Origin: Pogonophryne albipinna
Lineage: Eukaryota > Chordata > Actinopteri > Perciformes > Artedidraconidae
Assembly (NCBI GenBank): GCA_028583405.1
Contig: JAPTMU010000278.1
Coordinates: 124,001-188,000, forward strand
DNA: 64,000 bases
Direction of reading: 5' to 3'
A model generated the notes under the pieces. It was not told the origin of the DNA. It saw only the letters and a list, made by a program, of their open reading frames with translations, and did no database searches. Positions 9,871 through 63,413 of this stretch are shown in pieces. The first letter of the stretch is position 1; every line of letters starts with the position of its first letter. A program made the position numbers and the translations under genes.

Positions 9871-9899
9871 TCACCTTTCAAAAGTAATCGCGGACAATA

Positions 9900-10334
9900 G
9901 ATGTCTCTGCAATGTTGTCTCTTGTCTTCCTTGTATTATTTTTGATATCCACTAGATGGCGCTCGGTAGGATTAAAGCACTTGATATTCAGGATCTAGTC
10001 ATCTTGAAAAGTCGTAATCTGGATCAGGCTGATCCTATCCTGAATTGCTTTGAACTCCAGGGACAACATTTGGCCGACTTGTCTGATCCTGGATCACAAA
10101 AAATGGGATTTCAAAATCTGATCGGATCTGATTGAGATTAAAAGTTTTGAACTCCTGGGAGGGAGCCGCTCGTGAATTGTTGAAAGAGAGGGGTTTTAGG
10201 TTGCCATAAGGCTGTTGACGGTCTTATGTATCCATTGGTGGTTTTGTGGCACATTTGTAACGCTGTGCCAACTTGGGCAAGCACGCAGGCAAACTTGAGC
10301 GCACACAGGGTGGAGAGGTGGAGTGAGGTTGAGC

Positions 10335-10391
<57 letters not shown>

Positions 10392-11836: not shown

Positions 11837-11911
11837 ATAGTACTGTACTTGACCCTTTAGCCGTGTTCGTGGTGATTGTGGGAATATTGTTACAAATACC
11901 AGACAATTAAA

Positions 11912-14139: not shown

Positions 14140-15886
14140 CATGTGATCTTTCTTTCATGTAGGACGCTTGAGGGAAGTTGCAACGCCTCGGCCAATGTGA
14201 TGTCTTCTCCACGTGAAAGAGATTGAAGGCATCATTTATAACCTGAGACAATTTTCCAAAAGTTATGACTTTTATTGGCTTAGGCAGTAATGGATTACAT
14301 CTAACACGAATCAAGATCGTATAGAAAAAAAGGAAAGTGTAATCCTTAGTTACATAGGAAAAGATGTAATCGGATTAGTTTTACTTTTTTTAATAATAGG
14401 GAAACTCAGGATTACAATCTTATTCAAAACCTAAAAAGAGCTGTTTGTTGTAAAATGATCAAATTGTATCTCTTCTCTGGAAGCGGTTCTGTTCTGTAGG
14501 CTAATACTTTAATTGTGAATCTATACACCTACTGCCTGAATCTGCTTTATGGTATTATATTATACATTTAAGTAAAAAAATCATATTAATATTTCTTCTC
14601 TCCTGTGTTTATTTGCATTGCATTTGATATTGAGGTAATCCAAAAGAAAAATAAAGTTATCAGGTTACATTACTTTTATATCTTGATACTCACATTAAGT
14701 TACTGGTTGTGTTTTTGGCAAGTAGCCCTCCCAACCCTGTACATAAGTTATATCATTTTAATTACTGATACAGTTGTTGCACATCTTTAATTTATTTTCT
14801 AGTGTACTTAAGTCATAAAATGATTCGAAACCTTTACTTTTCATAAAATGCAAGATGTAACTTTCAATGTGTGTATTTATCACATTTTCAATGTGAAATA
14901 GATCTGATTAAATAAAGAGTAAAAGCACAATCTTAAATGTTGACATTTATCATTTTCCTATGCTTATTGTTAATGTAGTGGTGTTATAAACAAAATGTTG
15001 TCGTGAAGGAAGTTAAGATGTTTTTTATTTGTTGACAAAAGATTTCAAGTTGATGCTCACAACATGTGGGGACATTTATGGAGAAAAATGTTTCTATTGT
15101 AAAACAAATATTTATCTGCATACTGAACAATTTCAAAACTCTCTAAAAGGTATTATCTTCTGTGACTTTACAGCCCTGTAGGGATTGTGGGTATTGCACT
15201 TCATAATTACATTCTATGGTATGCTTATGACATATTTGATGCCAAAATACATGGGATTAGGGGAGACCTTCTTGTTGTTTGCATTGTCACTGATAAATGA
15301 CAGCGTAGTATTCATTGTCAAGATTTTGTGTTTTTAAACTTGGGACTCTTTGCAGACTGCTACGGCTTGGGAAAAGATTTGAGCCTTAATGTGTAATGTT
15401 TTCTGTATTGTATGGTAAGCTTATCCTTTCATTTGATAGTCCCATTTGGATGTGATAGCTAACATTTTCAGTAAGCAGTAGACAAAAGAAGTGAAAATAT
15501 GAATGTAATTTATTTTCAATATTTACATAAATACAGAATTATTTTAACAAATAAAATAACAAAAAACATCATAACAAATACAAAATAAAAGGTTTGACAG
15601 ACAGCCATGCCCAGCATGGGCCTGGAGAGCTACAGAGTCCATTGGGGGAAGAGGGGGGGGTGGGATGTGGGGAAGAGGAAGAGCAGCCATGTTAACAGTG
15701 TTATGGCTACAGATGTAATATCTAACTCAACATTAGCCATGACAGTCTGGGCTTAGCAAGGGCCTTAGAATACATACTCTAAAGGCCAAATCCAAAAACA
15801 GTGATACTGACATTTTAGCAGTTCACAGTCTTTGGAGATGGTCTTTCAGGAAATTGGCTAGTGACTTTAAAAAAATATCATTTCCC
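14140..15886. other. AT-rich arm sequence, no gene seen
   Basis: No coding region is supported. The minus strand near 15,500-15,600 carries an AATAAA that may end transcripts of the adjacent SGNH-like gene. Mirror copy at 57,881-59,665. Confidence 0.45.
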
Positions 15887-16400
15887 CTAGGGGTGAAATG
15901 AACTATCTCGCAAAAAAAGCCCAGGACTGTCATGTCTCATGTTGGAGTGGTCAACAATGACACCATTTAGGCTATGAACAAAAGTAGCCATAACACTGTT
16001 AACAAACTTCCGGGCCTTGTCAATTTTGACAGGATTTGCACCAGCCCTCCACCGGCGCCTCTGGTTGATCTGGGAGAGCATGATCTTCATGCCAGGGTGC
16101 CGATGGTGAAGCTGGTGCAGGTCCTCCTTCATCTGGTTCAGCAACTGAACACTGGGCACATCCCCCAAGTCATTGCCGCCACAGTGGATGAGGACATCCG
16201 GGGCTGCTCTTCCTCGCAGGGAGTAGGAAAAGAAAGGGAGGACACCTCTCCAGCGCAGTCCACCCCAACCGAACCAGCACACCCTCAGGTCGAGGCCAAG
16301 GTTGCTGCCGATGGTCTCTAGCTCTCTGGGCTCAACGCCAGACATAGCTGTCTCCGATTATCCATACAGTCACTATGGGAGGAAAATAAATGAGTAACAA
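15887..16400 (-). pseudogene. SGNH-hydrolase-like gene, left arm copy, broken
   Basis: The main frame (16,345-15,887) has VLIHCGGNDLGDVP, the GxND block of SGNH/GDSL hydrolases, and ends near DSSFHP, a candidate for the Asp-His block. The expected first block WIIGDSY, with the nucleophile Ser, lies just upstream in another frame, directly after a good splice acceptor. In this copy that frame runs into TGA after about six more codons. A frameshift therefore separates the nucleophile from the rest, in both arms. SGNH domains are carried by several transposon families in fish, so a mobile origin is likely. Host origin cannot be excluded. Confidence 0.65.
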
Positions 16401-16659
16401 ATGCTTCAGATAATGAGGAATATCAAATTAAGTATAAAGGGTTGCTCATTTTGTTCCTTTGACAATAACATACAAAATAACTATGAAATCACACCTGTAT
16501 GGTTAAAAGTAACAAGAGAGCAAAACCTCAAAAAACAGACATTGTAAATGCTTAGATATTATGTCTTATTGATAATATCAATGCATGAAATAATGCAACA
16601 AGCTGTAGATGAACAACAATTTATTGAACTGGAACTTTGAAACACATGAGCACTGGGAT

Positions 16660-16916
16660 TGATATATGTTCTCTCTTCCACTCCTCTCCTATCTCATCCT
16701 GTCCTCCACACCTCCCCTATTGTGTCTGCTCCTGTCTTCTCTTCCTACTCCTCTCCACTCTTCTCCCTTTTCCTCTGTCATCCTCTACTCTCTTATCCTC
16801 CTCTTCTTCTCCTCTTTCATCTTCGCCCCTCTTCTCTTCCTCCTCCCTCTTTCCTTCTGTGCCCTCCTGGCTCCTCCCCCTCTCCACTCCTCTTCCTCCT
16901 CCTCTCTACAGTCTGA
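16660..16916. repeat. Polypyrimidine (CT-rich) tract, left arm
   Basis: About 250 bp of almost pure C/T on the plus strand, irregular TCC/CTC repeats. Open frames through it (Ser/Leu/Pro-rich) are compositional artefacts. The purine-rich mirror lies at 56,850-57,105. Confidence 0.85.
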
Positions 16917-17053
16917 CGATCTGAAACAGAATGTTATTTTTGAGTTAAAATTGGTCATCTCCATAAGCTAAAATGGTGTTATATTTGTCTTTAGGAGGGT
17001 GACCAATAAATATTACAATCTTTCATACATCCATAAAGGCTATTGCGCATACC

Positions 17054-19454
17054 TCATTGCTTTAACTTATTGACACACTCTTGCAGCTCTTTCAGGGCTT
17101 TGTCTAGAGCTGCCACCTCTTCCTTTTTATCAGCAACCCCTTTCCGATAGGCATTTGATTTTGACAGCAGTGTAAAATTGTGCTTCTTCTCTGCAATGAC
17201 TGCCATTTCATGTGCTTCTTTCTCCATTGTTTCAGCGCTAGTCATTACTTTTTGCCGCTTTGTTTTCACTTTCTGGATTTCCTGGGAGAGCTCCTTTCTT
17301 TTCTTCTCTTTAGTGGTTTGCTCTCTCGACTTCTTCTGGTCTTCCAGATACATCTCATATCTTGTCCTTGCTCCTCTGCAGTGTTGCTTGAGGTCTTTTG
17401 GAAGAGCTCCATCTGTGTGCCCAGCCATTGCATCGTGGACCAAGCGCATTGCTATTAGCGTCTTCTCCTGTAGGTTTTCAACAAGCATATCCTTGTTAAC
17501 AGAGTACCCCCTTTCTACTGCAGCTTGTCCATGAGACAGCGTGAAGAGACATTGCATGATGTTCCACAGTTCTGCATACTCTTCTTTGCCACTGAGATAT
17601 CTTCCCAAGAATTCATCAAGTCTGCAGCTGTAAACAAATTCTTGGAACTCTGCTTTGTGGTTTGTGTTGACATCGAGTGAGAATGCTTTATACTGAGAAA
17701 GGACTTTGTCACACTCTGTGGCAGGGCACCATCCAGCATTGAGGAGAACCTGAAGGAGTTTCTCAAACATTGCTGTTGTACTTTCGGTTTCTGTCACAAT
17801 CATCACAGGGTCAAGGGACCTCATATGCCGCACAGCTGGATACATGAGAGGACTTCTCTCCATAATTTTCTTGCAGGTCATTGCGAGTAAGGAGACACAT
17901 TCTTTTTTGAACTCCACGATTTTCACTGGATTTTCCTGGAGCTTCTCAGATGCCTTCGGCAAAGCCTGCTTGGTTGAAAATCCTATGTCCAGGTGTTTGA
18001 GTGGGACATGGATTTGCTTCTCTTTGGGGGTCCAGTTTAGTGAGCTGGAGAGGTGTCTTGATCTTTGCCAGCTCTTCTCTCTTGATAAAGCATGACAGCA
18101 GGCCTGTCAGGGTGCTTTGGAGCTCCTTTGCCAAGAATGGCACCATTGGGGCATCTGTCTGAAATACCTTCAAAAAAGGCTTCAGCTGTCTTGCAACAAA
18201 AGCGAAAAACTAGAGTTTAGCCAGGAAAAGAGGGTCTTCGGTTGCCTTCTTGACTGTCAAGTAGGACGCAGATGTTGGCACTTTACTCTTCGGAAGTTTC
18301 TTGTGGCTGTGGATGTACGCCATCACAGCTGGCCACACTTCGATTGCCCACTCAGCAACTTGCAAGTCTTCAACCCATCGAGTGGCACAGAACTGAGGAA
18401 ATCTTGCCGTTTTAGTCAGCTCACTGAAATCCTCTCGCCTTGCTGGCGAGTCATGGAACACCTGCCAAAGCGCTCTCAACGCATCTCCGATTTTCCAACC
18501 TGTTTCCCTCTCTCCGGTCTGGAAACTTCCATGCACAACATGCAGACCACAACTTCCCAGGTTGATGAGCTTTGGTGCATCTGGGTCCTCTTTGCTCTTG
18601 TCCTCTTGGAATATTCTTAAGAACTTCCAATTCACTGTAGGGCCGTCCATCGATATTTGCAGGAGCTTCTTGGGGTCCAGAGGTGACAGGGATCTGTTGA
18701 TACTCTCCAAGAGCTTCTCTGCCTGAGTGTGTCCTAGGAACTCTGAAGTGAAGTAACGCACAGCTACCTTCCCTTCGCGTTCACTCCAGTAGCGCAGAAT
18801 GATATCCATCTGTTCTGTTTGTGTCACTTTGTTAAGGCATTCGTCAAAAGACACTACATGACACTTTGCTTTTCTTACGTCTTCGATCAGCTGCTCTTTA
18901 AAATGAGCATACAAGCCAAACCATATAAGGTAAGCCGATTTTGTTGCGCCACATGTAAATTGTTTGGCAATTTCGCTGTCTGGGAAGATCTGAGCAAAAG
19001 TGTTTGAAATGTCAGAGTTGGAGTTGAACGAGAAGTGTGACCTGACCATCTTCATGACCCAGCGAATCTCTGCTTCAAATACAGCTTGGCTTGAAAAAAA
19101 TGTTTTCCCCTGAGCTCCAGAGCCTTTTTCCGTAGGATGTTCACTGCTGGTACTGGGCACCTGACTGTCACTTTCGATATCCTGGCTTGTTGGGCCGCTT
19201 CTTCCCTCTCCTGTTTTTGTAGTCAAGAAATCTGTCATTCTTCATTCATTATTTAGCTGTCCAGCTAACTTGATGTGGGTTTGTCCTTTTGAATGGCTCT
19301 TGAGGGAAGCGACCCCCATATTGCTGATGTCAAATGACTTGCAGCAAAACTTGCAATAAGCCTTGTGGACATCTCCTGGTACCTCTCCAATCCATTCCTT
19401 GTATTGAGAGTCATCTTTCCAATGTGACTTGAATCTGCCGCGTGTCATTGTCAC
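17054..19454 (-). pseudogene. hAT-like transposase with BED-type finger, left arm copy, broken
   Basis: Reading on the minus strand: a finger ORF (19,454-19,242) has YCKFCCKSFDISNMG and H-x5-H, a BED-like zinc finger. After an in-frame TGA and one codon, a second ORF (19,238-18,210) carries VVSFDECLNKV, LLQISMDGPTVNWKF, LGSCGLHVVHGSF and FCATRWVED. The last ORF (17,962-17,054) carries QAAVERGYSVNKDM, the likely catalytic Glu region, and a Lys/Glu-rich C-terminal coiled-coil stretch. This layout fits an RNase-H-fold hAT-like transposase family common in fish. This copy has a stop after FLAKL (near 18,210), absent from the right arm, plus the frameshift shared with the right arm (one extra C in a C-run near 18,065). 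Confidence 0.8.
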
Positions 19455-20229
19455 TCACTCCTGTAATGCATCACACATTTGAGATTATGAGTCTTACGTA
19501 GAAGGGTATGCCTACTCTTACTCTGTCAAATCTTTTGTAAATCAAACTAATGAACCTAAAAGGGAAAACATAAGGCTGGTTCCCCTGTGGTTCCTCAGTA
19601 CAGCAACCCCACTAGTAAGCTTAGCTTAACAGTATAGATGTATAGAATCAGTCTAGGCATGATCAATGATTTTTCAAAAATGTCTCACCCCAAATGTTCC
19701 TATTTAGTAGTATAATTTTTTTAAAGAAAAACGAAAAATCACAAAATAGATAAAAGTAGATAAGAATGAATGTTACAAAATGTATCAAGACTAGACTATT
19801 CATGTCAACTAGTATAGAAGTAATGTCACAGCCTAATGTGAAAATGTATTGGTAGTTAGCTAGCAATGCAAGCTAGCCAACACTAGCTAGTTAGTTAGCA
19901 AACTGAATGTTGGCTAGCAAGATTGCACTCCATGTGCTTGCTAACCATCATTAACAAATCCAAATTCAAAACAAACTCAAACTCACGTTGCTAGCTAGTT
20001 AGCAAGATTGCACTGCTTACTAACTAACATTGATAAACCCAAGTTTACCACAGTTAAAACACAGCTACTTACATTTGAGGATAAACTTGCATAAGAAGTT
20101 TCACTGTAGATGTCAAGGCTCCCGTGTTGGCTGGGAAGTGCATGTATTTGACCCATGGGCGTCGCAGCCATTATATGAGGGTGGGACAAGTCCCCCCCAC
20201 TTTTTCAAATGATTCGTTTAGACCCCCCC
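19455..20229. other. AT-rich flank with GCTAGC-type inverted motifs
   Basis: Holds clustered GCTAGC and CTAGCTAG motifs (about 19,855-19,920 and 19,985-20,000) and runs into a C-run beside the minisatellite. No gene is supported. Mirror at 53,535-54,312. Confidence 0.45.
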
Positions 20230-23200
20230 ACTTTTCGGACCGACCCTCCGACAGCAGAGAGAGAGAGCTCCGACCGACCGACCCTCCGACAGCAGAGAGA
20301 GAGAGCTCCGACCGACCGACCCTCCGACAGCAGAGAGAGAGAGCTCCGACCGACCGACCCTCCGACAGCAGAGAGAGAGAGCTCCGACCGACCCTCCGAC
20401 AGCAGAGAGAGAGAGCTCCGACCGACCCTCCGACAGCAGCAGAGAGAGAGCTCCGACCGACCCTCCGACAGCAGAGAGAGAGAGCTCCGACCGACCGACC
20501 CTCCGACAGCAGAGAGAGAGAGAGCTCCGACCGACCGACCCTCCGACAGCAGAGAGAGAGAGCTCCGACCGACCCTCCGACAGCAGAGAGAGAGAGCTCC
20601 GACCGACCGACCCTCCGACAGCAGAGAGAGAGAGCTCCGACCCTCCGACAGCAGAGAGAGAGAGAGAGCTCTGACCGACCCTCCGACAGCAGAGAGAGAG
20701 AGCTCCGACCGACCCTCCGACAGCAGAGAGAGAGAGCTCCGACCGACACTCCGACAGCAGAGAGAGAGAGCTCCGACCGACCGATCCTCCGACAGCAGAG
20801 AGAGAGAGCTCCGACCGACCGACCCTCCGACAGCAGAGAGAGAGAGCTCCGACCGACCGACCGACCCTCCGACAGCAGAGAGAGAGAGCTCCGACCGACC
20901 GACCCTCCGACAGCAGAGAGCGAGAGCTCCGACCGACCTACCCTCCGACAGCAGAGAGAGAGAGCTCCGACCGACCGACCCTCCGACAGCAGAGAGAGAG
21001 AGCTCCGACCGACCGACCATCCGACAGCAGAGAGAGGAGCTCCGACCGACAGACAGACAGAGAGAGGAGGGGAGCTCCGACCGCACAGACAGAGGCTCCG
21101 ACCGACAGAGGCTCCGACCGACAGAGGCTCCGACCGACAGACAGAGGCTCCGACCGACAGAGAGAGGCTCCGACCGACAGAGAGACAGAGAGAGGAGGGG
21201 AGCTCCGACCGACAGACAGAGGCTCCGACCGAGACTCGACCGAGACCCCCGACCGAGACCCGACCGAGATCCGAGATCCGACCGAGACCCGACCGAGACC
21301 CCCGACCGATATCCCCGACCGAGATCCGAGATCCGACCGAGATCCGTCCGAGACCCCCGACCGAGACCCCCGACCGAGACCCCCGACCGAGATCCGACCG
21401 AGAGAACCTGAGAGACCGAGATCCGACCGAGACCCCCGACCGAGACCCCCGACCGAGATCCGACCGAGACCCCCGACCGAGATCCCCGACCGAGACCCCC
21501 GACCGAGATCCGAGATCCGACCGAGACCCCCGACCGAGACCCCCGACCGAGATCCGACCGAGACCCCCGACCGAGACCCCCGACCGAGATCCGACCGAGA
21601 CCCCCGACCGAGACCCCCGACCGAGATCCGACCGAGACCCCCGACCGAGACCCCCGACCGAGAGCTCCGACCGACAGACAGACAGAGAGAGGAGCTCCGA
21701 CCGACAGAGAGACAGAGAGAGGAGGGGAGCTCCGACCGCACAGAGAGAGCTCCGACCGACAGAGAGAGGAGGGGAGCTCCGACCGCACAGACAGAGGCTC
21801 CGACCGACAGACAGAGGCTCCGACCGACAGAGAGACAGAGAGAGGAGGGGAGCTCCGACCGCAAAGACAGAGGCCCGACCGAGACCCCCGACCGAGACCC
21901 CCGACCGAGACCCCCGACCGAGATCTGACCGAGACCCCCGACCGAGACCCCCGACCGAGATCCGACCGAGACCCCCTACGGAGCTCCGACCGAGAGAGAG
22001 AGGAGCTCCGACCGACAGACAGACAGAGAGAGGAGCTCCGACCGACAGAGAGACAGAGAGAGGAGGGGAGCTCCGACCGCACAGAGAGCCGAGATCCGAC
22101 CGAGACCCCCGACCGAGACCCCCGACCGAGATCCGAGATCCGACCGAGACCCCCGACCGAGACCCCCGACCGAGACCCCCGACCGAGATCCGACCGAGAC
22201 CCCCGACCGAGACCCCCGACCGAGATCCGACCGAGACCCCCGACCGAGACCCCCGACGGAGCTCCGACAGAGAGAGAGGAGCTCCGTCCGACAGACAGAC
22301 AGAGAGAGGAGGAGAGCTCCGACCGCACAGAGAGAGGCTCCGACCGACAGAGAGAGGCTCCGACCGACAGACAGAGGCTCCGACCGACACAGAGAGGCTC
22401 CGACCGACAGAGAGAGGCTCCGACCGACAGACAGACAGAGAGAGGAGGGGAGCTCCGACCGCACAGACAGAGGCTCCGACAGACAGACAGCGGCTCCGAC
22501 CGACAGAGAGACGAGCTCCGACCGCACAGAGAGAGGAGCTCCGACCGACAGAGAGACAGAGAGAGGAGGGGAGCTCCGACCGACAGACAGAGGCTCCGAC
22601 CGAGACTCGACCGAGACCCGACCGAGACCCCCGACCGAGATCCCCGACCGAGACCCCCGACCGAGATCCGACGAGACCCCCGACCGAGACCCGACAGAGA
22701 CCCCCGACCGAGATCCGAGATCCGACCGAGACCCGACCGAGACCCCCGTCCGAGACCCCCGACCGAGACCCCCGACCGAGACCCCCGACCGAGATCCGAC
22801 CGAGAGAACCTGAGAGAACACCCGACCCACTGAGAGAACACCCGACCCACTGAGAGCACACCCGACCCACTGAGAGGAACACCCGACCCACAGAGAGCTC
22901 CTCCCTCCGACCCACTGAGAGCTCCTCCCTCCGACAGCACAGATTGCATATATAGCTGGGAGAAAGGCTGCATGTCTTTAGATTAGAGGAATGAGCAGGA
23001 CTTGAAATGAAGAAACTCTTACTCTTGTTGCTGGTTGCTGAAAATATCTTGGGTGAGTTGCTAACTTTATTTGAGAGTCTGCTGATTGAGGACACAGTTA
23101 CATTAGAGCAGTGGTTCCCAACCTGGGGGGCGCCAAAGATCGCAGACCCCGACCGAGATCCGACCGAGACCCCCGACCGAGACCCCCGACCGAGATCCGA

Positions 23201-24350: not shown

Positions 24351-24668
24351 CTCCGTACTACGGAGCCCTGGAGGGTTCATAGAGAAAAATAAATAAAACG
24401 TGCGCACGCTTTGGTAACTCGTGCGCACGAGTTACTAAAGCGTGCGCACGAGTTATTAAAGCGTGCGCACGAGTTACTAAAGCGTGCGCACGAGTTATTA
24501 TTAAAGCGTGCGGACGAGTTACTAAAGCGTGCGCACGCTTTAGTAACTCGTGTGCACGCTTTAATAACTCATGCGCACGCTTTAGTAACTCGTGCGCACG
24601 AGTTACCAAAGCGTGCGCACGTTTTATTTATTTTTCTCTATGAACCCTCCAGGGCTCCGTACCTTACA
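24350..24668. repeat. Foldback of GTGCGCAC-containing units
   Basis: The ends are inverted copies built on GAGCCCTGGAGGGTTCATAG and AGAAAAATAAATAAAACGTG. The interior is about ten units of CGTGCGCACGAGTTACTAAA in direct and then inverted order. The axis is near 24,508. Alternating purine-pyrimidine GTGCGCAC cores could adopt unusual structure. The open frames seen here on both strands are the same repeat read twice. Confidence 0.85.
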
Positions 24669-27900: not shown

Positions 27901-28389
27901 CTCTCTCTGTCGGTCGGAGCCTCTGTCGGTCGGAGCCTCTGTCGGTCGGAGCCTCTCTCTGTCGGTCGGAGCCTCTGTCTATGCGGTCGGAGCTCCCCTC
28001 CTCTCTCCGTCTCTCTGTCGGTCGGAGCTCTCTCTGTGCGGTCGGAGCTCCCCTCCTCTCTCTGTCTCTCTGTCGGTCGGAGCTCCTCTCTCTGTCTGTC
28101 TGTCGGTCGGAGCTCCTCTCTCTCTCGGTCGGAGCTCCGTAGGGGGTCTCGGTCGGGGGTCTCGGTCGGATCTCGGTCGGGGGTCTCGGTCGGGGGTCTC
28201 GGTCGGGGGTCTCGGTCGGATCTCGGTCGGGGGTCTCGGTCGGGGGTCTCGGTCGGGGGTCTCGGTCGGGGGTCTCGGTCGGGCCTCTGTCTGTGCGGTC
28301 TGAGCTCCCCTCCTCTCTCTGTCTCTCTGTCGGTCGGAGCCTCTGTCTGTCGGTCGGAGCCTCTCTCTGTCGGTCGGAGCTCCCCTCCT
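24945..28389. repeat. GC-rich composite minisatellite, G-rich strand orientation (left arm)
   Basis: Same unit types as 20,230-24,205 but inverted: TCGGTCGGGGGTCTC 13-bp units, CGGTCGGAGCCTCTGTCTGT units and AGTGGGTCGGGTGTTCTCTC units. The G5 runs every 13 bp make the plus strand a candidate for G-quadruplex formation. A third first-exon copy interrupts it at 25,768-25,980. Confidence 0.9.
25860..25968 (-). other. Orphan promoter and signal-peptide exon, copy 3
   Basis: Third copy, minus strand: ATG at 25,905, donor after 25,860, TATA-like GCTATATATGC at about 25,957-25,967. The adjoining element end and minisatellite junction (GGTCTGCGATC) are the same as in copy 1, so copies 1 and 3 are a mirrored pair about the foldback. 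Confidence 0.6.
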
Positions 28390-28447
28390 ATGGCAAGCCA
28401 TTTGAGTATTTATTCAATTTCCTTGATATCAGACGGCAGCGACCTAC

Positions 28448-29049
28448 ACTAGTTGGCTCTTTGATTTCACTTGTTAGATATATGGTCAAACTAGTTAGGC
28501 ACTCTGCTTTACTAGTTAAATAAAACATTTCACTAGTCGCTCTTTTTCAGCAACTAGTGGCACTTTTGTCCGACTAGTTACCACGTATGCCTTACTAGTG
28601 ACGCCAAGAGCATCACTAGTAACGCCAAAGTCCCAACGTGTAAGCTTTTTGATGAACTAGTGGCCCTCTGACCGTACTAGTGACCCTAAAAGTCTTACAA
28701 GTTAACTAGTGCGCTGCAAAATCTCTGACATGTTAACTAGTCACACAAAAGAAGCACAACTAGTTAACTAGTGGCAAACATTTGTCTGCACTAGTTAACT
28801 AGTCGCACCCAGAATAACTCACTAGTTAACTAGTAAAGGCAAAAAGTTCACTAGTTAACTAGTCGACGCCTCTTTTGACCTTACTAGTTAACTAGTGGGG
28901 CTCAAAATGTCTACACGTTAACTAGTGAACCCTTTGCCCTTTACTAGTTAACTAGTGAGATGCATTTAAATTCCACTAGTAAACTAGTGAGGCTTAAAAT
29001 GTTCACTAGTTGTACTAGTGGATCCCAAATGTGCACTAGTCACACTAGT
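28448..29049. repeat. Phased ACNNGT array, outer end of left copy
   Basis: Twelve single sites have their last base at 28453, 28474, 28495, 28516, 28537, 28558, 28578, 28599, 28620, 28641, 28661 and 28681, a spacing of 20-21 bp. Twelve paired sites follow, with the first half-site ending at 28702, 28733, 28764, 28795, 28826, 28855, 28888, 28918, 28948, 28980, 29010 and 29040 (spacing 29-33, mean 30.7). Most sites are ACTAGT. Variants ACTTGT, ACGTGT, ACATGT, ACACGT and ACAAGT keep AC and GT. The spacers are unique sequence. Confidence 0.92.
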
Positions 29050-29867
29050 TGCACAGAATGCTAATGAGGAGGAGGGGAAAGAATGCATCGAGGTCTCCTA
29101 TTGGCCCTAAGCTATAGAGCGCCACCCAGCCCAAATAGTTTATTTAAGAGCTTAAATACACTGTTTTAAAATACAGTAATACGACCATATTTACACAAAT
29201 ATAAAACAAAATTATTTGTGTAATTATGATCATATGATTGTATATCAAATTAGGTAAGAACATTGAAGACTTTCTTAAAATTAGAAACGTGCCTGAGGAC
29301 TGCAGACAGGAATATAGATCCTCTTTAAAACATTTTATTAAGCTGCAATTTGAAAGGTGCTGGATTAGAATGGCACTGTGATAACAGAGGGACATTAGTG
29401 ATGGATAGAAAGAGGAAGAAACCCTCTTCAGATCACAGCTTTGAGAGATCGTCGTGACTTCCGTAAATATTAGTCTAAGGCAAAATATGGAGAGGTTGTT
29501 TATCTTCATACGGATCTATCGTTACCCTGATTTTAAGATCTGTCCAGTGTTTCAGCTTTATTCATTTCATGAGCACCGCTGATAAAATGTCCCACGATCA
29601 CTTCCTCTACTTTTGTGTCACGAGTGCCGGTGTTCTCACACACAAGCGTGCGCACATTCGCACCAACACACACACACACAAAGCGGAACAAAGCAGAAGC
29701 ATAAACATGTATATTTCTAGGCAAAACACACACTGACTGACTTCCCACGGACAATATGTTAACAGTAGGCACTAAATACCCGACTGATGCACCTCACGTA
29801 TTCGAGACGTTGCTAAAAAACATTGCAGGAGAACGCCCCCTCAGGCTCTCCCTCACAGAGCTGAACT
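29050..29867. other. Internal region of left copy, no gene seen
   Basis: Corresponds to 48,170-48,965 in the right copy with about 1-1.5% difference. An open frame of 121 codons (29,509-29,144) is present in both copies but has no recognisable domain and is AT-biased. I do not call it a gene. Confidence 0.45.
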
Positions 29868-29920
29868 GACCAATCAGAATCTGGGTCCCGCCTGCTTTAT
29901 TTGCATATATAGGCTCACTA
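29868..29920 (+). promoter_or_regulatory. Integrase promoter, retained in the deleted left copy
   Basis: In order: CCAATCAGAATCTGG (CCAAT box), TTTATTTGCATATATAGG (octamer ATTTGCAT overlapping a TATA box). In the right copy the same block lies about 145 bp upstream of the integrase ATG. Here the downstream coding exons are deleted. Confidence 0.6.
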
Positions 29921-29921
29921 G

Positions 29922-29978
29922 TGAACGTGTATGGCCTTCACGTTCACTAGTGAGCCATATGAACTGCAACTAGTTAAC
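29922..29978. promoter_or_regulatory. ACTAGT cluster in the integrase leader (left copy)
   Basis: CACTAGTGAACGTGTATGGC is followed by its inverted partner TTCACGTTCACTAGTGAGCC. Then comes one full ACTAGTTAACTAGT site. The cluster sits immediately 3' of the TATA box, so it would fall in the transcript leader or at the start site. Confidence 0.7.
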
Positions 29979-30051
29979 TAGTGGATGCATATCGGTCTCC
30001 TATTGGCTCTTAAGCCCATCAATCTTCACAGAAGTTCAAACACAAACATGG

Positions 30052-32632: not shown

Positions 32633-32867
32633 CATATATATGCAAGTATTGCTAATGCAATTGTTTTTTAAGTTTTTGTACATAGTCTCAAATGTTTAAA
32701 TTGTTTATGGAGGCATTACAATTTAAGACTGATAAATTAACACTGAAACTACTGTTTTTTTTTGCATTAAGTCATACTGGGATGTTTGCTGAAATTGATT
32801 TTATGTGGTACAGCCCTACCTAGAAAAAAAAACACCAGCCGCCACTGCTTAAAAGGCTCTTCACTCA
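31986..32867. other. Internal region of left copy with (TA)n tract
   Basis: AT-rich, with a TA repeat at 32,572-32,640. I see no gene. Sampled stretches differ from the right copy by about 6%. Confidence 0.45.
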
Positions 32868-32925
32868 GTTTGGACACTGACCAATCAAAATCGGGGTCCC
32901 GCCTGCTTCATTTGCCTATGGCTGA
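32868..32925 (+). promoter_or_regulatory. Second CCAAT/octamer-like block beside the axis array (left copy)
   Basis: GACCAATCAAAATCGGGGTC and CCGCCTGCTTCATTTGC closely resemble the integrase promoter block at 29,868, in the same direction. The TATA box is not conserved here (TATGGC). The right-arm version (34,186-34,238) keeps the ATTTGCAT octamer. It points toward the palindrome axis. Confidence 0.45.
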
Positions 32926-34180
32926 CTAGTTAACGTGTTGGCCATATGAACGGCAACTAGTTAACTAGTGGATGCATATTGCAGCATACACGTTAACTAG
33001 TGAAGGCAAAATGTTCACTAGTTAACTAGTTGAAGCCTGTTTTGGTCTTCTAAGCTGACTAGTGAGGCTCAAAATGTGCACTAGTTAACTAGTGAGGTCC
33101 AAATTGTCCACTATATGCACTAGTACAATTGTTTTGACCTTACTAGTTAACTAGTTACACACACTTTAGCTCACTAGTTAACTAGTGAAGCCTTAGAGGA
33201 GTCACTAGTAAACTAGTGACACAGATGTTGTTCTTACTAGTTAACTAGTGGAAGGGCATTTTTTCTCACTAGTCAGGTTCTGTTATAAACATGTTAGACT
33301 TTGACCTTACATGTTACACATTTTTCTTACATGTAAGGCCTTCCCTTCGACTAGTTTGGCTTTTTTCGCACTAGTGAGCAACTGTATGCAACTAGTTAGC
33401 TATTGATTTAACATGTATGGCTTTTTCCAGAACTAGTGGATATGTTCAACCCACTAGTTGTGCTTTTGTTCTCTCTAGTTCAACACAATGACTTACTAGT
33501 TGACGTGTACGTGCAACTAGTTAACTAGTGAATTGTTTCAAAGTCATACATGTTGACTAGTGCATTTTTTGACACATCACTAGTTAACTAGTTGCACGTA
33601 CACGTCAACTAGTAAGTCATTGTGTTGAACTAGAGAGAACAAAAGCACAACTAGTGGGTTGAAAATATCCACTAGTTCTGGAAAAAGCCATACATGTTAA
33701 ATCAATAGCTAACTAGTTGCATACAGTTGCTCACTAGTGCGAAAAAAGCCAAACTAGTCGAAGGGAAGGCCTTACATGTAAGAAAAATGTGTAACATGTA
33801 AGGTCAAAGTCTAACATGTTTATAACAGAACCTGACTAGTGAGAAAAAATGCCTTCCACTAGTTAACTAGTAAGACAAACATCGGTGTCACTAGTTTACT
33901 AGTGACTCCTCTAAGGCTTCACTAGTTAACTAGTGAGCTAAATTGTGTGTAACTAGTTAACTAGTAAGGTCAAAACAATTGTACTAGTGCATATAGTGGA
34001 CAATTTGGACCTCACTAGTTAACTAGTGCACATTTTGAGCCTCACTAGTCAGCTTAGAAGACCAAAACAGGCTTCAACTAGTTAACTAGTGAACATTTTG
34101 CCTTCACTAGTTAACATGTAAGCTGCAATATGTATCCACTAGTTAACTAGTTGCCGTTCATATGGCCAACACGTTAACTA
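32926..34180. repeat. Axis array: phased ACNNGT sites spanning the palindrome centre
   Basis: Counting rightwards from the axis, paired sites lie at 33548-33561 (ACATGTTGACTAGT, the axis), 33579-33592 and 33600-33613. Single sites end at 33634 (degenerate), 33655, 33676, 33697, 33717, 33738, 33758, 33779, 33799, 33819 and 33840, a spacing of 20-21 bp. Mostly paired sites follow, with first half ending at 33863, 33895, 33926, 33957, 33988, 34019, 34049, 34082, 34111, 34143 and 34174 (29-33 bp). The left side mirrors this. The order, single sites outside and paired sites inside, is the same as in the outer arrays. Confidence 0.92.
33532..33576. other. Asymmetric 45-bp centre of the palindrome
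   Basis: The only stretch between the arms that is not itself mirrored. Its midpoint (33,554) coincides with the midpoint of the central paired site ACATGTTGACTAGT. Confidence 0.85.
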
Positions 34181-34185
34181 GTCAG

Positions 34186-34238
34186 CCATATGCAAATGAA
34201 GCAGGCGGGACCCAGATTTTGATTGGTCAGTGTCCAAA
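34186..34238 (-). promoter_or_regulatory. CCAAT/octamer block beside the axis array (right copy)
   Basis: On the minus strand: GACCAATCAAAATCTGGGTC, then CTTCATTTGCATATGGCT. It shares the CCAAT box, the GGTCCCGCCTGCTT core and the octamer with the integrase promoter. It faces the axis, with no gene downstream of it before the centre. Confidence 0.45.
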
Positions 34239-35160
34239 CTGAGTGAAGAGCCTTATAAGCAGTGGCGGCTGGTGTTTTTTTTTTCTAGGTAGGGCTGTAC
34301 CACATGCAATGAATTTCAGCAAACATCCCAGTATGACTTAATGCAAAAAAAACAGTAGTTTCAGTGTTAATTTATCAGTCTTAAATTGTAATGCCTCCAT
34401 AAACAATTTAAACATTTGAGACTATGTACAAAAACTTAAAAAACAATTGCATTAGCAATACTTGCATGTATATGTATGTATATATATATATATATATGAT
34501 GTATATCATATATATATAAGTTGAAGTTTATTTGCATTAAAAACGTGTGTTTAAACCCTTCTGTTCAAAGTTGATATTTTGTTTCTTAAAAGATTAAATC
34601 TTTAAAAACATGCTGTTTGCCATTTTTAAAGTTTGATGGAAGAAATTAAAATATAGGTCACTGCCGTGGAGCTTTAGGCCTGCAATGCTTTAAAACAAAT
34701 GTTTTAGTTGTTTCAGTTTTGAAGAGTGATATGGATGTTAAATACACACATTAGTATGAATAATCTTAAACAAGAACAGGATCTTGAACCATGATAATCT
34801 GTGTATCTACCGTCCAATTGTTTTTCTTTATTAAACACATAAACAGAAGAGCATTTGAGAGGCCTTTTTGCTTTTTACCTTACTAAATGGTCTAATTGTC
34901 ATTGGAGCGAGGGGCGAAACTCACGGAAGTGATTTCAAAACAAAAGCGGTGATAATATTATAAACAAAAGGAAACAAGGTGAATTTAGCGATCACAACGA
35001 AAACGGCCAAGACACACATTGAGCCCAGAGAATGGATGTTACTAAGGCTGTAAATATAATAAGCCTGTGTCTAAACTGGACAACATTGTTAGGAGATTTA
35101 AACTATACAGCGGTTCTGCACTGCGGTCACTCAGCCGCCTCTCGAGTTTGTTTTTTCAAA
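34239..35160. other. Internal region of right copy, no gene seen
   Basis: Mirror of the 32,000-32,870 region with a (TA)n tract at about 34,466-34,520, and with about 140 bp (34,660-34,800) absent from the left copy. No coding region is supported. Confidence 0.45.
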
Positions 35161-36413: not shown

Positions 36414-37979
36414 CAGTGGGGCAAAAAAGTATTTAGTCAGCCACCAATTGTGCAAGTTCTAACACTTAAAAAGATGAGAGGCCTGTAATTTTCATCCTAG
36501 GTCTACCTCAACTATGAGAGACAGAATGAGAAAAAAAATCCAGAAAATCACATTGTCTGATTTTTAAAGAATTTATTTGCAAATTATGGTGGAAAATAAG
36601 TATTTGGTCAATAACAAAAGTTCATCTCAATACTTTGTTATATACCCTTTGTTGGCAATGACAGAGGTCAAACGTTTTCTGTAAGTCTTCACAAGGTTTT
36701 CACACACTGTTGCTGGTATTTTGGCCCATTCCTCCATGCAGATCTCCTCTAGAGCAGTGATGTTTTGGGGCTGTCGCTGGGCAACACAGACTTTCAACTC
36801 CCTCCAAAGATTTTCTATGGGGTTGAGATCTGGAGACTGGCTAGGCCACTCCAGGACCTTGAAATGCTTCTTACGAAGCCACTCCTTCGTTGCCCGGGTG
36901 GTGTGTTTGGGATCATTGTCATGCTGAAAGACCCAGCCACGTTTCATCTTCAATGCCCTTGCTGATGGAAGGAGGATGTCACTCAAAATCTCACGATACA
37001 TGGCCCCATTCATTCTTTCCTTTACAGGGATCAGTGGTCCTGGTCCCTTTGCAGAAAAACAGCCCCAAAGCATGATGTTTCCACCCCCATGTTTCACAGT
37101 GGGTATGGTGTTCTTTGGATGCAACTCAGCATTCTTTCTCCTCCAAACACGTTTAGTTGAGTTTTTACCAAAAAGTTCTATTTTGGTTTCATCTGACCAT
37201 ATGACATTCTCCCAATCCTCTTCTGGATCATCTAAATGCTCTCTAGCAAACTTCAGACGGGCCTGGACATGTACTGGCTTAAGCAGGGGGACACGTCTGG
37301 CACTGCAGGATTCAAGTCCCTGGCGGCGTAGTGTGTTACTGATGGTAGCCTTTTTTACTTTGGTCCCAGCTCTCTGCAGGTCATTGACTAGGTCCCCCCG
37401 TGTGGTTCTGGGATTGTTGCTCACCGTTCTTGTGATCATTTTGACCCCACGGGGTGAGATCTTGCGTGGAGCCCCAGATCGAGGGAGATTATCAGTGGTC
37501 TTGTATGTCTTCCATTTTCTAATAATTGCTCCCACAGTTGATTTCTTCACACCAAGCTGCTTACCTATTGCAGATTCAGTCTTCCCAGCCTGGTGCAGGT
37601 CTACCATTTTGTTTCTGGTGTCCTTTGACAGCTCTTTGGTCTTAGCCATAGTGGAGTTTGGAGTGTGACTGTTTGAGGTTGTGGACAGGTGTCTTTTATA
37701 CTGATAACGAGTTCAAACAAGTGCCATTAATACAGTTAACGAGTGGAGGACAGAGGAGGCTCTTAAAGAAGAAGTTACAGGTCTGTGAGAGCCAGAAATC
37801 TTGTTTGTTTGTAGGTGACCAAATACTTATTTTACCGAGGAATTTACCAATTAATTCATTAAAAATCCTACAATGTGATTTCCTGGATTCTTTCCCCCCA
37901 TTCTATCTCTAGTTGAAGTGTACCTAGGATGAAAATTACAGGCCTCTCTCATCTTTTTAAGTGGGAGAACTTGCACAAT
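36414..37979 (-). mobile_element. Tc1/mariner element, right terminal repeat truncated
   Basis: Starts CAGTGGGGCAAAAAAGTATT beside a TA-rich target. The inverted partner at the far end reads AGAACTTGCACAAT and then stops at 37,979, so about 40 bp of the outer repeat is missing. The terminal repeats are at least 90 bp long and possibly about 200. The neighbouring 580 bp present in the left arm (30,165-30,745) is gone here. That suggests one deletion removed both the element end and adjacent DNA. Confidence 0.85.
36627..37649 (-). CDS. Tc1-family transposase, intact 340 aa
   Basis: A complete frame of typical length for Tc1 transposases (about 340 aa). The N-terminus has two helix-turn-helix segments ([11 protein letters not shown] about residues 37-47; [12 protein letters not shown] about 101-112) joined by a basic GRPR-like linker ([11 protein letters not shown]). 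The catalytic triad is Asp153 ([11 protein letters not shown]), Asp244 ([11 protein letters not shown]) and Glu279 ([11 protein letters not shown]), that is DD34E, the arrangement of active Tc1/Sleeping Beauty-type enzymes. It catalyses cut-and-paste transposition into TA. The protein looks functional, but this copy has lost its far terminal repeat and so probably cannot move itself. Confidence 0.95.
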
Positions 37980-38309: not shown

Positions 38310-41300
38310 ATGACAGACGAAAACGAAAATGGCACTCAGGAATTCAACAGTGTAATGAATCGCGTTTTTAATGCGCTTGACGTTGCCAGAAGGGATCTAG
38401 CAGCGCAGCGCAACGACAATGTTCTGCGAGTCACCAGGAGCACGTTCCGGAGGCGTCGGAGGGCACCAACAACGGGTAGGCTATATCAGTTCTTAAATGT
38501 GCATGAGCATTAGCATTGTCCATTTCATATTGTGCTGATGCATTGGTCTTAAATCATATATAGTGCAAGGCAAGCTTATTTAAAAAGTTTTGTTCACGTT
38601 AAATTTGCAGTGGATTCATAATGTATCGAGTTTAGTTTTAACGTTTTCATTTGAAGTTTGAGCCGGGAAGAGCAAGCTAACTACTGCTGTGTAGCCTACA
38701 TAAAGCCTACATAAACTTACTGTGCCAGGACAAGTTGTGTATTTTAAACCAACTGGATAAATATTACAGTTGTAATGATGACAATATTTAAGCAATACTT
38801 GTAAAAAGTATTTAAGCAGTAGTGTACTTGAATGTTATGTTTTGGAGAAGCTCCCTCACATCTTTAAACAGGAATATGATAACTTGTTCATAATTATACA
38901 AAAATGTGAGAACTATGACAACTCAATATAAGTATAAATGCTAACGTCCTTGAATCAACAGGTCAATTATACTTAGGGATACCAACTTTGTTATGTCTTT
39001 TTCTAATGACAATTAAGCAGTTATTACAAATAGCATACTCCACTAAATATAGCTGCTATTTGTGCTATAGACAGGCTATATCAGTATTAACAAAATCTTT
39101 CATTTCAATTGTGAAATATTTAAATGTTATATCATGGCTTAGGACATTACATTACGTAGCTGTATCATACGGTCATTCTCTATCTTTCTTTCAAAATGAT
39201 AGGATAGACGATAAGTAAAGCAAGAGAAAGAACTTTAAACATAAAAATGGTCATCCATACATTTTCTCCCTCCTTTCCAGACTCAATGGAGCAATTTATT
39301 AAATACAATTCTTCCATTTTGAGTGGTGCTTATTTTGTATAACCGTATGTAATATTGTACATTCTGTCATTTTACAGGGGCATCAAATGAATCTGCCGGA
39401 GTTTGGAGGGTGAAACTTTTTCTGTTGGCATTGGCGGACCAATCCGTCCTTCCAGCACCTACAGATAGCAGCCGACTGTCAAGAGAAGGTTTAGGTAAAT
39501 AATTAAATAGGTTTGAAAAATGAGCATCCACTTGAGACTGATTCATTATCTGCACAGAAAATGCACAACATGTTTGCACACCATTCAACTTCATTGAAGA
39601 CTTTTCAATGTTTGATATGAATATTATTTCTGTATGGCCTGGGTGCAAGGTTGAAAACATTAAAAAATAATCTCTTTAATCCATCACCTCCACTTTTGGC
39701 AGCAATGCTTACCTTTATTGCCTAAAAACACATACACATTATGCCTATTCTATCATTGGCTTACATTGTTCAAATATTAATAATAGCTTTTTTCCATTCA
39801 TAACAAAGTCAATGTCTAGGATGAGCCTTCATTCATATAGCACCTTTTTTGACCATATGTTCATAAATGTATATTTTTCACTTCATATAAAGACACGATA
39901 TGGCTTAGAATCTAAATCATAGTTATTTATAGAGCCAGTATATTGACTGATACCTTTTCTTTTTTTTTTACAGGAATCCCAGCTCATGACCAGCAAGGGG
40001 TTGTTTCAGAACGAAGCTATGTCAAGCTCTCAATGACTCTTTTAGAGTTCAACAGCTATGTTTGTCAACGTTTTCCTACAATTCCCTTGAATATGATTGG
40101 GTTCACTCTGGCAAGAGCTGGCAACACCAGGCTACTAACGCAACTGCAGGCTACTACTATGGCAGACCTTAAAAGATCTGTTGGCAGGAGCAGGGTTTAT
40201 ATAATCCCGCAGGCAGACATACCAACATCGTTAGTGGTGAGTTGTTGTTTTGAGCCTATTCTTTACTACTGTTACTATGTTATAAATTCTACATATATCT
40301 ATGTTATACTTAATTCTTTAATATTAGGAGATTGATATTGGTTACTTTTTAAGCTCCATCAAGTTCTCCTAAACTTTTTTATCATCCAATCCACAGATGG
40401 CCTCATCTTCTGCCTCTGCTGCCCTTAGACCTGCAGGAGCACCCTCTGCCTCGGCCGCCGCTACCTCGGCCACTGATTCAGAAGGAGCACCCTCTGCCTC
40501 GGCGGCCTCTACCTCGGCCACTGATTCAGAAGGAGCACCCTCTGCCTTGACCGCCTCGACCTCGGCCACTGATTCAGAAGGAGCACCCTCTGCCTCGGCC
40601 GCCTCGACCTCGGCCACTGATTCAGAAGGAGCACCCTCTGCCTCGGCCGCCTCTACCTCGGCCACTGATTCAGAAGGAGCACCCTCTGCCTCGGCCGCCT
40701 CTACCTCGGCCACTGATTCAGAAGGAGCACCCTCTGCCTCGGCCGCCTCGACCTCGGCCACTGATTCAGAAGGAGCACCCTCTGCCTCGGCGGCCTCTAC
40801 CTCGGCCACTGATTCAGAAGGAGCACCCTCTGCCTCGGCCGCCTCTACCTCGGCCACTGATTCAGAAGGAGCACCCTCTGCCTCGGCCGCCTCTACCTCG
40901 GCCACTGATTCAGAAGGAGCACCCTCTGCCTCGGCCGCCTCTACCTCGGCCACTGATTCAGAAGGAGCACCCTCTGCCTCGGCCGCCTCTACCTCGGCCA
41001 CTGATTCAGAAGGAGCACCCTCTGCCTCGGCCGCCTCTACCTCGGCCACTGATTCAGAAGGAGCACCCTCTGCCTCGGCCGCCTCTACCTCGGCCACTGA
41101 TTCAGAAGGGGCACCCTCTGCCTCGGCCGCCTCTACCTCGGCCACTGATTCAGAAGGAGCACCCTCTGCCTCGGCCGCCTCGACCTCGGCCACTGATTCA
41201 GAAGGAGCACCCTCTGCCTCGGCCGCCTCGACCTCGGCCACTGATTCAGAAGGGGCACCCTCTGCCTCGGCCGCCTCTACCTCGGCCACTGATTCAGAAG

Positions 41301-44126
41301 GAGCACCCTCTGCCTCGGCCGCCTCGACCTCGGCCGCCACTGAAACTGTGGGATCAACCACTGCTCCCATACCCCCATCAACTTATGTATCTATGGACGC
41401 TGATGTATGTACAAAATATCTTATTATGAATTCATCTCAGGAGATTTTCGAAAATAAACATAGTAAAAGACAGTTGGATGTAATTGTTACCTCTTGTCAA
41501 TCAACAGGTGGAAAGTTTGCATTCCGCACAATGGGTAAATGCTGGGACTCCAGAGGTAAAGCTTTACTGCATGGCTGTATAGTTCAGTATTTGTAGTGTA
41601 TATACACGTTTTAATAAGGACATTAACATTTCATGCACCATTTTTACTTTCAAGGTCTTTTATAGAAGGTCACGTTTGGAACAACCAAACAGGTATTTAT
41701 AGATAATGGTGTTTTATACATAGTGTATTGGTTTTGAATGTAAGCTAACTTAATACCCTGTTCTCATCCTTTATATATTATTATATATAATTATATATAT
41801 ATATATTATAATAATTAATTATAATAATAATTATATATATATTATTATTATATATTATTTATATATCCTCTTAAAAGAAACATGTTTTTTTTCTAGGAAT
41901 TCATTCAATGACTTTTTAATTGATTATTCTGATGAGGAGGAAGAGGGCAAGGACGAGGCTTGTGGGGCTTTGGAAAGTTATGTCTTTCCCGTGGTAAGTT
42001 TTATTTGTCATTATTAAAAAATAGGACAACATTTGTTTCCGGGAACTGATAATGACACATACTAAATGCAATAATTTCGCTACATTTCCGAAAGCACCAG
42101 TACCCAAGACAGACAACCCCTCTTGACCAATCACCAGTCATGTATAATGGACTTTATACATTTTAAATGATTTAGGAAGAAGTGGATCTGGCTGTCCTTT
42201 TAAGTGACTTCAGAAAGGAATTTGTTTCTGATGGCCTAGTCAGTAATATCTGCATCAGGAGGAAGAAACTTCTTGAGAGTGCAATAAAAGCCATCTCAAG
42301 GGTTACATTCTGCTGGAACAATTCCCCCTACATAGAATTTGTAGGAGAAGATGGAGATGACATGGGTGGACCACAGAGAGAGTTTTTCAGGTCTGAATAA
42401 CCTCATTTAGTGTATGATTCTTAATCATAATGTGTCCTAGTTTTCAGGTTGACTGCAAAGTTATAGTACTGTATTTTTTTCTCAATTGATTTATTGTAGA
42501 CTCTTGATGATAGAAGTACAAACATCCATGGGAATATTCGAGGGAAAGGCTGGTCAGGTCTTCCTTACCTATGACCAAGCGGCATTAGATGGCCACAAGT
42601 ATTTCCAAGCAGGCCGCCTAATTGCGTGGTCAGTGGCACACGGAGGTCCGTGTATCAAAGCCCTGGATCCCAGCCTGTACCAGCTGATGTGCGGCCAGGA
42701 GCCTCAACTGGAGCAATTTGACTGCAGTGTGCTGCCTGATCCGGATGTTCAAAGCAGAGCAAAAAGGGTGCCTGATTATTTTTATGTTATTAATTAATAT
42801 TTGTTAGGATTTGATAGAAAAAAATACATTCCTTCTTGGTCAGTGACAGTTTGTAAAAGCATTTCTACTAAACCTTTGTAATTTATCAATCCGGCTACAT
42901 TATTTTATCTCTAAGATCCTAAAGTGCAAGACTGCAGAGGACCTGTCTGCCCTCCAGCAAGACTTGGGGGACTGGATCTCTGAGTGTGGCGTCCCTGGCA
43001 TCTTCAGTGCCACTATCGGAGAAATTCCAAAGATGTATTCCTATGTAGTTAAGCACTACATATTTCTCAGGTAAACAAAAACACTTATAAACAAAAAAAT
43101 ATAAAGTCATAGACATTATAAAACAATGTTAATATAAAAGCCATAACTTACTGTATGCTACTAATATTTAACATTTTGAACACTGAATATTTTGTGTTTT
43201 CCTTAACGTAGGTTACAATTTTGCAAATTATGTATGCTATCCTATTATCACTGCTTTTTAGTCTTTTCCAAAAAAACGCATCAGTTTTTCTTCAGGTTAT
43301 ATACATGTTTGATCTTTGTTGGCTTATAGAACGGCCAAGATGGTGAACCAATTCACGGAGGGCATGAATGCTTTTGGGAAGCTGTGGGACCTGGTCAGGA
43401 ACAACTGGATTGCCTTCCTTCCCTGCTTCACCAACATGAGGACCCCGCTGACAAAATCCTCCTTTAAGGCCATATTCAAATATGAATACAGTCCAAGAGG
43501 AACAAATCACCGGGAAAAAGAGGAGGACACGATATACAGCTGGGAGTTGGTCCTAAACCTCATCGAAGGTACATTTTATACCTTAAGGAAAATGTAAAAG
43601 CACTTCATATGAAATTACTATAACTCAGTAAATACTGTTATTGATGGATGCTTTACAAAAAGAAAATCGATTTAATTTAATATCAATGTAGCTAATGCAA
43701 ATACAAAAATGGGCAAATACACATGTTGATGTCAATATACCATAAAGCCAAATAAATGTAAACTACATTATTGATTAATGTTTGATGTTAAATTACTTTA
43801 GTGATATTATTATGTTCCACATTTGACTTTAAAAATGAAAATAAATATTCCAATATACACTTTTGTCATTGGCAGACAAACTGACTGAACTGACATTTGA
43901 GGACCTGCTGATTTTCATCACTGGGGCAGATGAAGTTCCAACGCTTGGCTTTCCAAACAAGCCCTCCATTGACTTTTATACACAGGAGGTCGGCGTGCGT
44001 CGTTTGCCATATGCCTCAACCTGTGCTATGACGTTGTTCCTACCAAGAGGCATCACAGAGGAACAAGAGCTTCACAACATACTGAACCAGTCAGTGAAAG
44101 ACTCGTGGGGCTTTTTAAAGGTCTAG
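38310..44126 (+). CDS. HECT-domain E3 ubiquitin ligase-like protein, 11 exons, 938 aa
   Basis: Predicted exons: 38310-38475, 39378-39494, 39974-40236, 40397-41404, 41655-41692, 41897-41993, 42176-42390, 42500-42767, 42916-43070, 43330-43568, 43876-44126. All have GT-AG borders and join in frame with no stop. Residues 1-182 are a basic N-terminal region of unknown role. Residues about 200-497 are some 18 copies of a 16-aa Ala/Ser/Thr repeat. From about 570 to the end is a HECT domain: YIEFVGEDGDDMGGPQREFF (N-lobe start), LTFEDLLIFITGADEVP, and the C-lobe with YASTCAMTLFLP. The latter places the active-site Cys at 905 (codon 44,022-44,024). HECT ligases pass ubiquitin from E2 to substrate through this Cys. 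It resembles the G2/M-phase E3 ligase-like proteins expanded in fish. An upstream in-frame ATG at 38,289 is possible. Confidence 0.82.
40447..41335 (+). repeat. 48-bp coding minisatellite within HECT exon 4
   Basis: About 18 near-identical 48-bp units encode the 16-aa block APSASAASTSATDSEG. Units differ mainly by GCC/GCG and TCT/TCG silent changes. It is low-complexity, hydrophilic, and likely a flexible linker in front of the HECT domain. Confidence 0.95.
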
Positions 44127-48118: not shown

Positions 48119-48120
48119 GA

Positions 48121-63372: not shown

Positions 63373-63413
<41 letters not shown>

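Follow-up and report, generated by a model that had tools for sequence, protein, structure and literature searches.

The element and its surroundings

The window, by which we mean the whole 64,000-nucleotide stretch of Pogonophryne albipinna DNA analysed here, contains a long copy of a DNA transposon that begins and ends with TA and is framed by two copies of CCCTCC (Table 1). TA..TA termini and usually 6-bp target duplications are described for the IS3EU superfamily in the portion of the literature account available to us (PMC10045372). Judged by its termini, its 6-bp duplication and the rva_4 integrase that it encodes, the element appears to be of IS3EU type. Membership of the Tc1/Sleeping Beauty-type elements was rejected, as the duplication comprises 6 bp instead of the 2-bp TA. 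For the possible first frame of the integrase gene the Pfam scan gave no family over the cut-off, and a single-sequence structure model of the 88-aa helix-turn-helix frame (46706-46972) is weak, with a mean pLDDT of 65.7. PDB sequence searches with three frames returned no useful relative, and an Rfam gathering scan of the window gave 0 matches.

The element carries further sequences. A plus-strand frame at 43845-44126 matches the end of a HECT domain (E 1.9e-9) and is possible cargo, while three other plus-strand frames in 42176-44126 have no Pfam match. A 48-bp repeat at 40369-41382 (18.8 copies, 97% alike) is open in several frames, and the intact-looking frame of a Tc1/Sleeping Beauty-type transposase at 36627-37712 is probably a nested insertion. 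Elsewhere in the window, at 24373-24647, lies a small palindromic, element-like stretch with inverted ends GGGTTCATAGAG, in which GTGCGCAC recurs every 21 bp; its 10 near-matches are separated by steps of 21, 24 or 42, and it represents a second palindromic two-turn array, unrelated to those described below. The element, together with a GGTCGG-type minisatellite, is flanked by inverted arms (9748-21083 and 52688-64000) that are 98.9% alike over 11,371 bp and represent either a palindrome of giant size or a fold-back in the assembly.

Table 1. Coordinates, in the window, of the element, its frames and its site arrays.
Feature	Positions	Strand	Basis or remark
Putative IS3EU-type DNA transposon copy, 21,256 bp	28389-49644		termini TATGGC...GCCATA; terminal inverted repeats (TIRs) aligned
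Target duplication, left	28383-28388		CCCTCC
Target duplication, right	49645-49650		CCCTCC
TIR, left	28389-29995	+	97.9% identical to right over 1609 bp
TIR, right	48040-49644	-	aligned with left
Register 1, left array: 12 single ACNNGT sites	28448-28681		steps 20-21 bp; site list and shuffles
Register 2, left array: 12 paired sites (ACNNGT, 2-3 bp, ACTAGT)	28697-29049		steps 29-33 bp
Small group of four ACTAGT sites, inner edge of left TIR	29917-29982		site list
Axis palindrome with ACNNGT pairs, singles and central pairs	32824-34283		inverted repeats; sites 32925-34182
Main integrase frame	45447-46256	-	Pfam PF24764 rva_4, E 7.9e-79
Frame with integrase core start, basic stretch before it	46444-46647	-	rva_4 E 7.9e-7, above cut-off
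Frame with probable helix-turn-helix, candidate site binder	46706-46972	-	HTH_38 E 0.0025, below cut-off
Possible first frame of integrase gene	47688-48053	-	assigned by eye
Small group of four ACTAGT sites, inner edge of right TIR	48053-48118		site list
Two-register array, right TIR	48982-49585		few sites lost or shifted relative to left

Layout, conservation and origin of the arrays

The initial annotation placed the arrays at the element ends. The left array indeed lies near the end, but it is subterminal, beginning 59 bp inside the element with its first site at element position 60 (counting from 28389). Its first register is present site by site as annotated, with single sites starting at 28448, 28469, 28490, 28511, 28532, 28553, 28573, 28594, 28615, 28636, 28656 and 28676. 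The twelve pairs of the second register exist as well, running from 28697/28705 to 29035/29044, but their steps are looser than the 30-31 bp first reported, although the mean pair-to-pair step is 30.7 bp. The within-pair offset is 8 in ten of the twelve pairs and 9 in the last two. The spacing comparison with shuffled sequence that had been proposed was run on the left array with 1000 dinucleotide shuffles and places its regularity far above them: ACNNGT occurs 36 times in 616 bp (shuffle mean 4.67, maximum 11), and the longest chain is 13 both for steps of 20-21 bp (shuffle maximum 3) and for steps of 29-33 bp (shuffle maximum 4). A chance origin of the regularity was rejected, since none of the shuffles approached these counts and chains. 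The best period is 20.76 for the single sites (R 0.99) and about 10.26 for the entire left array (R 0.78). The units lie on one face of the helix, and A-tracts lie midway in the linkers: A4/T4 tracts are found there in 9 of 22 single spacers (3.9 expected) and in 11 of 22 pair spacers (2.9 expected).

The arrays are not independent of one another. The one at 48,975-49,587, previously described as independently spaced, belongs to the right-hand copy of the terminal repeat, whereas the axis array does have a layout of its own, with pairs, singles and central pairs, but its spacers are related to those of the terminal repeats. Pair-spacers 5-7 of the terminal repeat match pair-spacers 3-5 of the axis with order and orientation kept (scores 11, 9 and 10), and since three consecutive spacers match in order, the two arrays share history. 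Independence of the three arrays was rejected on these matches and on the identity of the terminal repeats. The three arrays are two copies of one terminal repeat and one related axis array.

Nor are the spacers unique and unrelated, as had been thought. Those of the terminal-repeat pairs have a mean pairwise score of -1.91, compared with -4.46 +/- 0.40 in shuffled spacers, and similarity exceeds the maximum of 60 shuffles in all four groups (4/4); this residual similarity and the shared mid-linker A-tracts contradict the claim, and wholly unrelated spacers were rejected. Tandem duplication had seemed hard to reconcile with the arrays, but that argument is not supported, since the spacers keep similarity and one related family carries simple tandem repeats of 23 bp at the corresponding position. 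Residual spacer similarity, shared A-tracts and these repeats of the relative make duplication, with later selection on the sites, the simplest origin of the arrays.

That selection has acted on the sites is supported by the other copies in the genome (1.073 Gb, 861 contigs searched). Exact matches to the 20-base terminus number 94 on one strand and 98 on the other, and the palindromic pair-pair pattern is found at 469 places, whereas its reversed control is found at none. In 33 array segments, drawn from the right-hand copy in the window and from 21 loci located through the terminus or the integrase, and counted with CpG columns excluded, changed bases number 8/2048 in AC/GT columns, 10/1013 in NN columns and 118/5727 in spacers. 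AC/GT columns are thus changed about 5 times less than spacers, and NN columns 2 times less. Circular shifts of the labels never gave as extreme a difference (0/556). Loci found by the pair pattern, which are biased toward intact sites, gave 13/1874, 17/922 and 183/4769, respectively (shifts 0/564). Across copies, these rates confirm the claim that only AC and GT persist in variants. The arrays could also be ordinary tandem repeats that have diverged and serve no function, a view for which the residual spacer similarity and the plain 23-bp repeats of the relative speak. However, plain neutral repeats should not show five-fold lower change at AC/GT, nor should spacing be retained while spacers diverge, and we rejected this explanation as exceedingly improbable.

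The initial annotation further asked whether an integrase is always nearby. It is not: a 5,165-bp copy (in L005) retains both end arrays and the axis without an integrase match, its first frame being reduced to 25 residues.

Insertions of the element into its own arrays

Of the 192 exact ends, the first 100 in the list were examined for the sequence that flanks them on the outside, and in 43 of the 100 this flank lies in the element's own terminal or axis arrays. Sorting gave 45 raw calls of this kind, from which 2 microsatellites were dropped; two of the 43 kept match at only 68%, and two flanks whose last 9-10 bp are a fragment of a terminus were excluded from the count. Microsatellite-like sequence makes up 9 of the 57 non-self flanks (7 recognised by score, together with the 2 dropped). 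Family ends in TGTC- or GT-type microsatellites are seen at C1:1536223-1541387, C4:1482830-1488424 and C11:10306002. If the element's own arrays make up well under 0.1% of the genome, as we guess, the excess of self-insertion would be several hundred-fold, though stacked ends may share events.

Same-direction stacked ends recur at the same breaks, 49 bases (6 places), 102/103 bases (4) and 297/298 bases (3) from the terminus. Pairing left with right ends in 36 combinations gave an exact 6-bp duplication in 3 and one with a single mismatch in 3, and for the majority of stacked ends no partner was recovered; our guess is that such stacks collapsed by recombination between repeats. At C9:26527607/26539579, a copy nested in the terminal repeat of another copy is seen from both sides, with AGCCAA/AACCAA (one mismatch), and the mirror side of the 49-base break is found at C19:17711331, whose end GCCGTC is the complement of GACGGC. 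At position 1556 of L007, two element ends abut at their tips, with next to no sequence separating them. The sequence CCTCATA in L029 was considered as a terminus and judged not to be one. At C9:36138078-36142352 (L107, L108), a copy is flanked on both sides by one and the same point in the mirrored arms of the axis, with no direct target duplication, as if the palindrome centre had been lost.

It is possible that DNA shape alone is at work, phased A-tracts and palindromes curving or extruding the DNA, attracting insertion and bending the ends. The mid-linker A-tracts, the palindromic axis and the mirrored axis arms around the insertion at C9:36138078/36142352 would all suit such a scenario, but conservation sits at AC/GT and not in the linkers, and we consider shape alone very unlikely to suffice.

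Junction distances were measured, in bases, from the start of the last intact site. Within 33 nt there are 34 distinct junctions, which lie at 7, 9-14, 22-25 and 30-33, and none of the 34 lies at 1-6 or 15-21 nt. Positions 9-11 or 22-24 hold 23 of the 34; junctions placed uniformly along the same arrays would put 28% there (p 2e-6), and weighting by the profile of non-self targets would put 20% there (p 3e-9). If only distinct coordinates in the terminal repeats are considered, 13 of 16 take these positions (p 1.8e-5), a count that excludes the breaks at 42 and 49, which precede the first site, and one axis-type break. Circular tests on 17 junction breaks gave p 0.0018 for a period of 20.7 bp and p 1.5e-4 for 10.4 bp; in a larger junction set the 20.7-bp phase is weak (p 0.019) and the 10.37-bp phase gave p 1e-4.

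As a held-out set, ACTAGT within 20 bases of a terminus was sought genome-wide, which gave 49 matches at 45 distinct places; 23 of these lay outside the first set, one stack-on-stack case was dropped, and the remaining 22 represent 17 distinct linkers. Fifteen of the 17 fall at 9-14 or 22-24 (46% expected, p 3.5e-4), or 13 of 15 without the 2 linkers that also occur in the first set (p 0.0013). The narrower windows 9-11 or 22-24 hold 10 of the 17 (p 0.012), and a single one of the 17 falls in the avoided zones, where 46% were expected (p 4e-4). The two classes of junction mirror each other about the palindrome, the duplicated six bases being GT followed by four linker bases in one class and four linker bases followed by AC in the other. 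When registers were assigned from linkers of 3-8 bases, pair-assigned junctions fell mostly at 12-14 and single-assigned ones at 9-12, but a different junction distance for the two registers is only suggestive.

Several self duplications start with GT or finish with AC, as would be expected if the integrase intrinsically preferred ACNNGT-like targets and the arrays were merely rich in them. However, non-self targets show only a weak profile, and the clustering of junctions persists after weighting by that profile. Moreover, ACNNGT occurs at 9-11 nt in only 1 of 55 distinct non-self flanks, which gives no indication that insertion is drawn to isolated sites. An intrinsic target preference thus strikes us as a distinctly unlikely explanation.

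Related arrays, proposed function and known systems

A genome search with PF24764 gave at least 153 matches (150 of 522 candidates scored). Among 30 loci cut out, the diverged ones are 31-42% identical to the window integrase where measured (main frame or neighbour). For six loci, one close relative (L045) and five diverged, 7 kb on the N-terminal side were taken. The close relative has an array of like kind to that of the window element, and arrays are present in two of the five diverged families, whose integrases are 33-39% identical over the matched stretch. In one of these (C3:26111366-26123860), TACATACAT units follow one another in steps of 21 and 22 bp (21.5-bp period), and, counted from either terminus (TATGAGGGGCC), the first unit lies at position 62; the flanks are GACAAC/GACAAT. 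In the other (L048), CACATGTG units are mostly 21-25 bp apart and start about 54 bp from the GGCCCCTCATA end; this 23-bp type recurs in L034, L036 and L040. No array was seen by autocorrelation or in the parts read on one side of L046, L049 and L050, in which the ends were not located. An order of terminus, 54-62 bp gap and roughly two-turn units is thus common to three families, while motif and period differ. A 23-bp period does not equal two whole helix turns, which counts against the helical-phase reading.

Nevertheless, the earlier proposal of selection for a helically phased protein array is well supported by the conserved AC/GT, the phasing, the layout in relatives and the junction distances. 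We infer that the bound protein is the transposase. It is possible that the binder is instead another protein of the element or a host factor, that the arrays are regulatory or chromatin sites and that self-insertion is a by-product. The helix-turn-helix frame is a candidate binder only, and the element also carries the HECT-like frame. Tandem TrpR dimers bind 8 bp apart, which would match the 8-bp within-pair offset. The pair ACTAGTTAACTAGT is identical to the core of the E. coli trp operator in 14/14 bp, as given in the available part of the source (PMC11748629), and such a sequence would suit an ordinary dimeric regulator. A TrpR-type binder was nonetheless rejected, as it finds no support in the Pfam scan or in a fold search with the weak binder model, which gave no match at E <= 0.001 and did not have TrpR among the best 50 matches; the operator identity is probably coincidence or convergence. 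The position of arrays near the terminus in three families and the junction geometry point to the transposition machinery, and a binder other than the integrase seems rather unlikely.

A more appealing scenario is that the arrays serve as a subterminal recognition domain, on which dimers of the element's protein are phased on one face of the helix, pair the ends and provide landing platforms for other copies; we give this reading a probability of roughly 0.6. Dimers of the helix-turn-helix/integrase protein would occupy single sites and tandem dimers the paired sites, and the phased complex would pair the transposon ends. Loaded arrays may then capture incoming integration complexes of other copies, the 6-bp staggered cut being set next to an occupied site, at mirrored positions on its two sides. 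The stronger proposal is that transposase-loaded ACNNGT arrays, besides pairing the ends, form a self-addressed integration platform that captures other copies and has them cut at mirror positions, such that a large share of insertions are self-insertions and the element becomes its own safe haven. We hold this more tentatively, at somewhat less than even odds. As part of it, the cut in the pair register may lie about 3 bp farther outward.

The self-insertions are a natural footprint of where the integration complex sits beside each site, and they make it testable how a eukaryotic transposition complex of the integrase type is arranged. With repeated transposase sites, the relevant letters and the importance of spacing are usually hard to tell; here the natural copies inform on both, AC and GT mattering most and spacing following whole turns in two registers. 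Landing in itself would also be a route by which a transposon spares host genes.

Parts of this picture are already known from other systems, namely multiple transposase sites near the ends (Galileo), TnsB steps of about 21 bp and self-insertions of the P-element. The element resembles the IS3EU superfamily in its TA..TA termini, 6-bp duplications and integrase-type DDE gene, but it has an array, whereas the available text on that superfamily mentions none and uses 'subterminal' 0 times (PMC10045372). No text joining IS3EU with 'subterminal' was found in the literature searched, which lies outside Repbase and most subscription journals. Tn7-like/CAST TnsB and phage Mu likewise place an RNase H-fold transposase on repeated end sites, and in ShCAST the 22-bp TnsB sites overlap by 1 bp, giving a step of about 21 bp; however, according to the portion of the source at hand, there are few sites per end and an AAA+ partner picks the target (PMC9371665). 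Pfam scans of 10 chosen frames inside the element gave no AAA+ family over the cut-off. As in the present element, P-element copies have inserted into copies of their own transposon, whereas the fixed distance from arrayed sites seen here is not encountered for the P-element in the accessible part of that account (PMC4744444). Galileo and Foldback-like elements have terminal repeats that are long and repetitive and contain several transposase sites, of which the first lies about 70 bp inward, in the sections of the source available (PMC3688188). Among the chosen frames scanned here, that of the transposase is an rva_4 integrase and not a P-type THAP transposase. Thus, while Galileo combines a THAP transposase of the P superfamily with three sites, by the same partial account (PMC3688188), the element described here combines an rva_4 integrase with a phased, two-register array.
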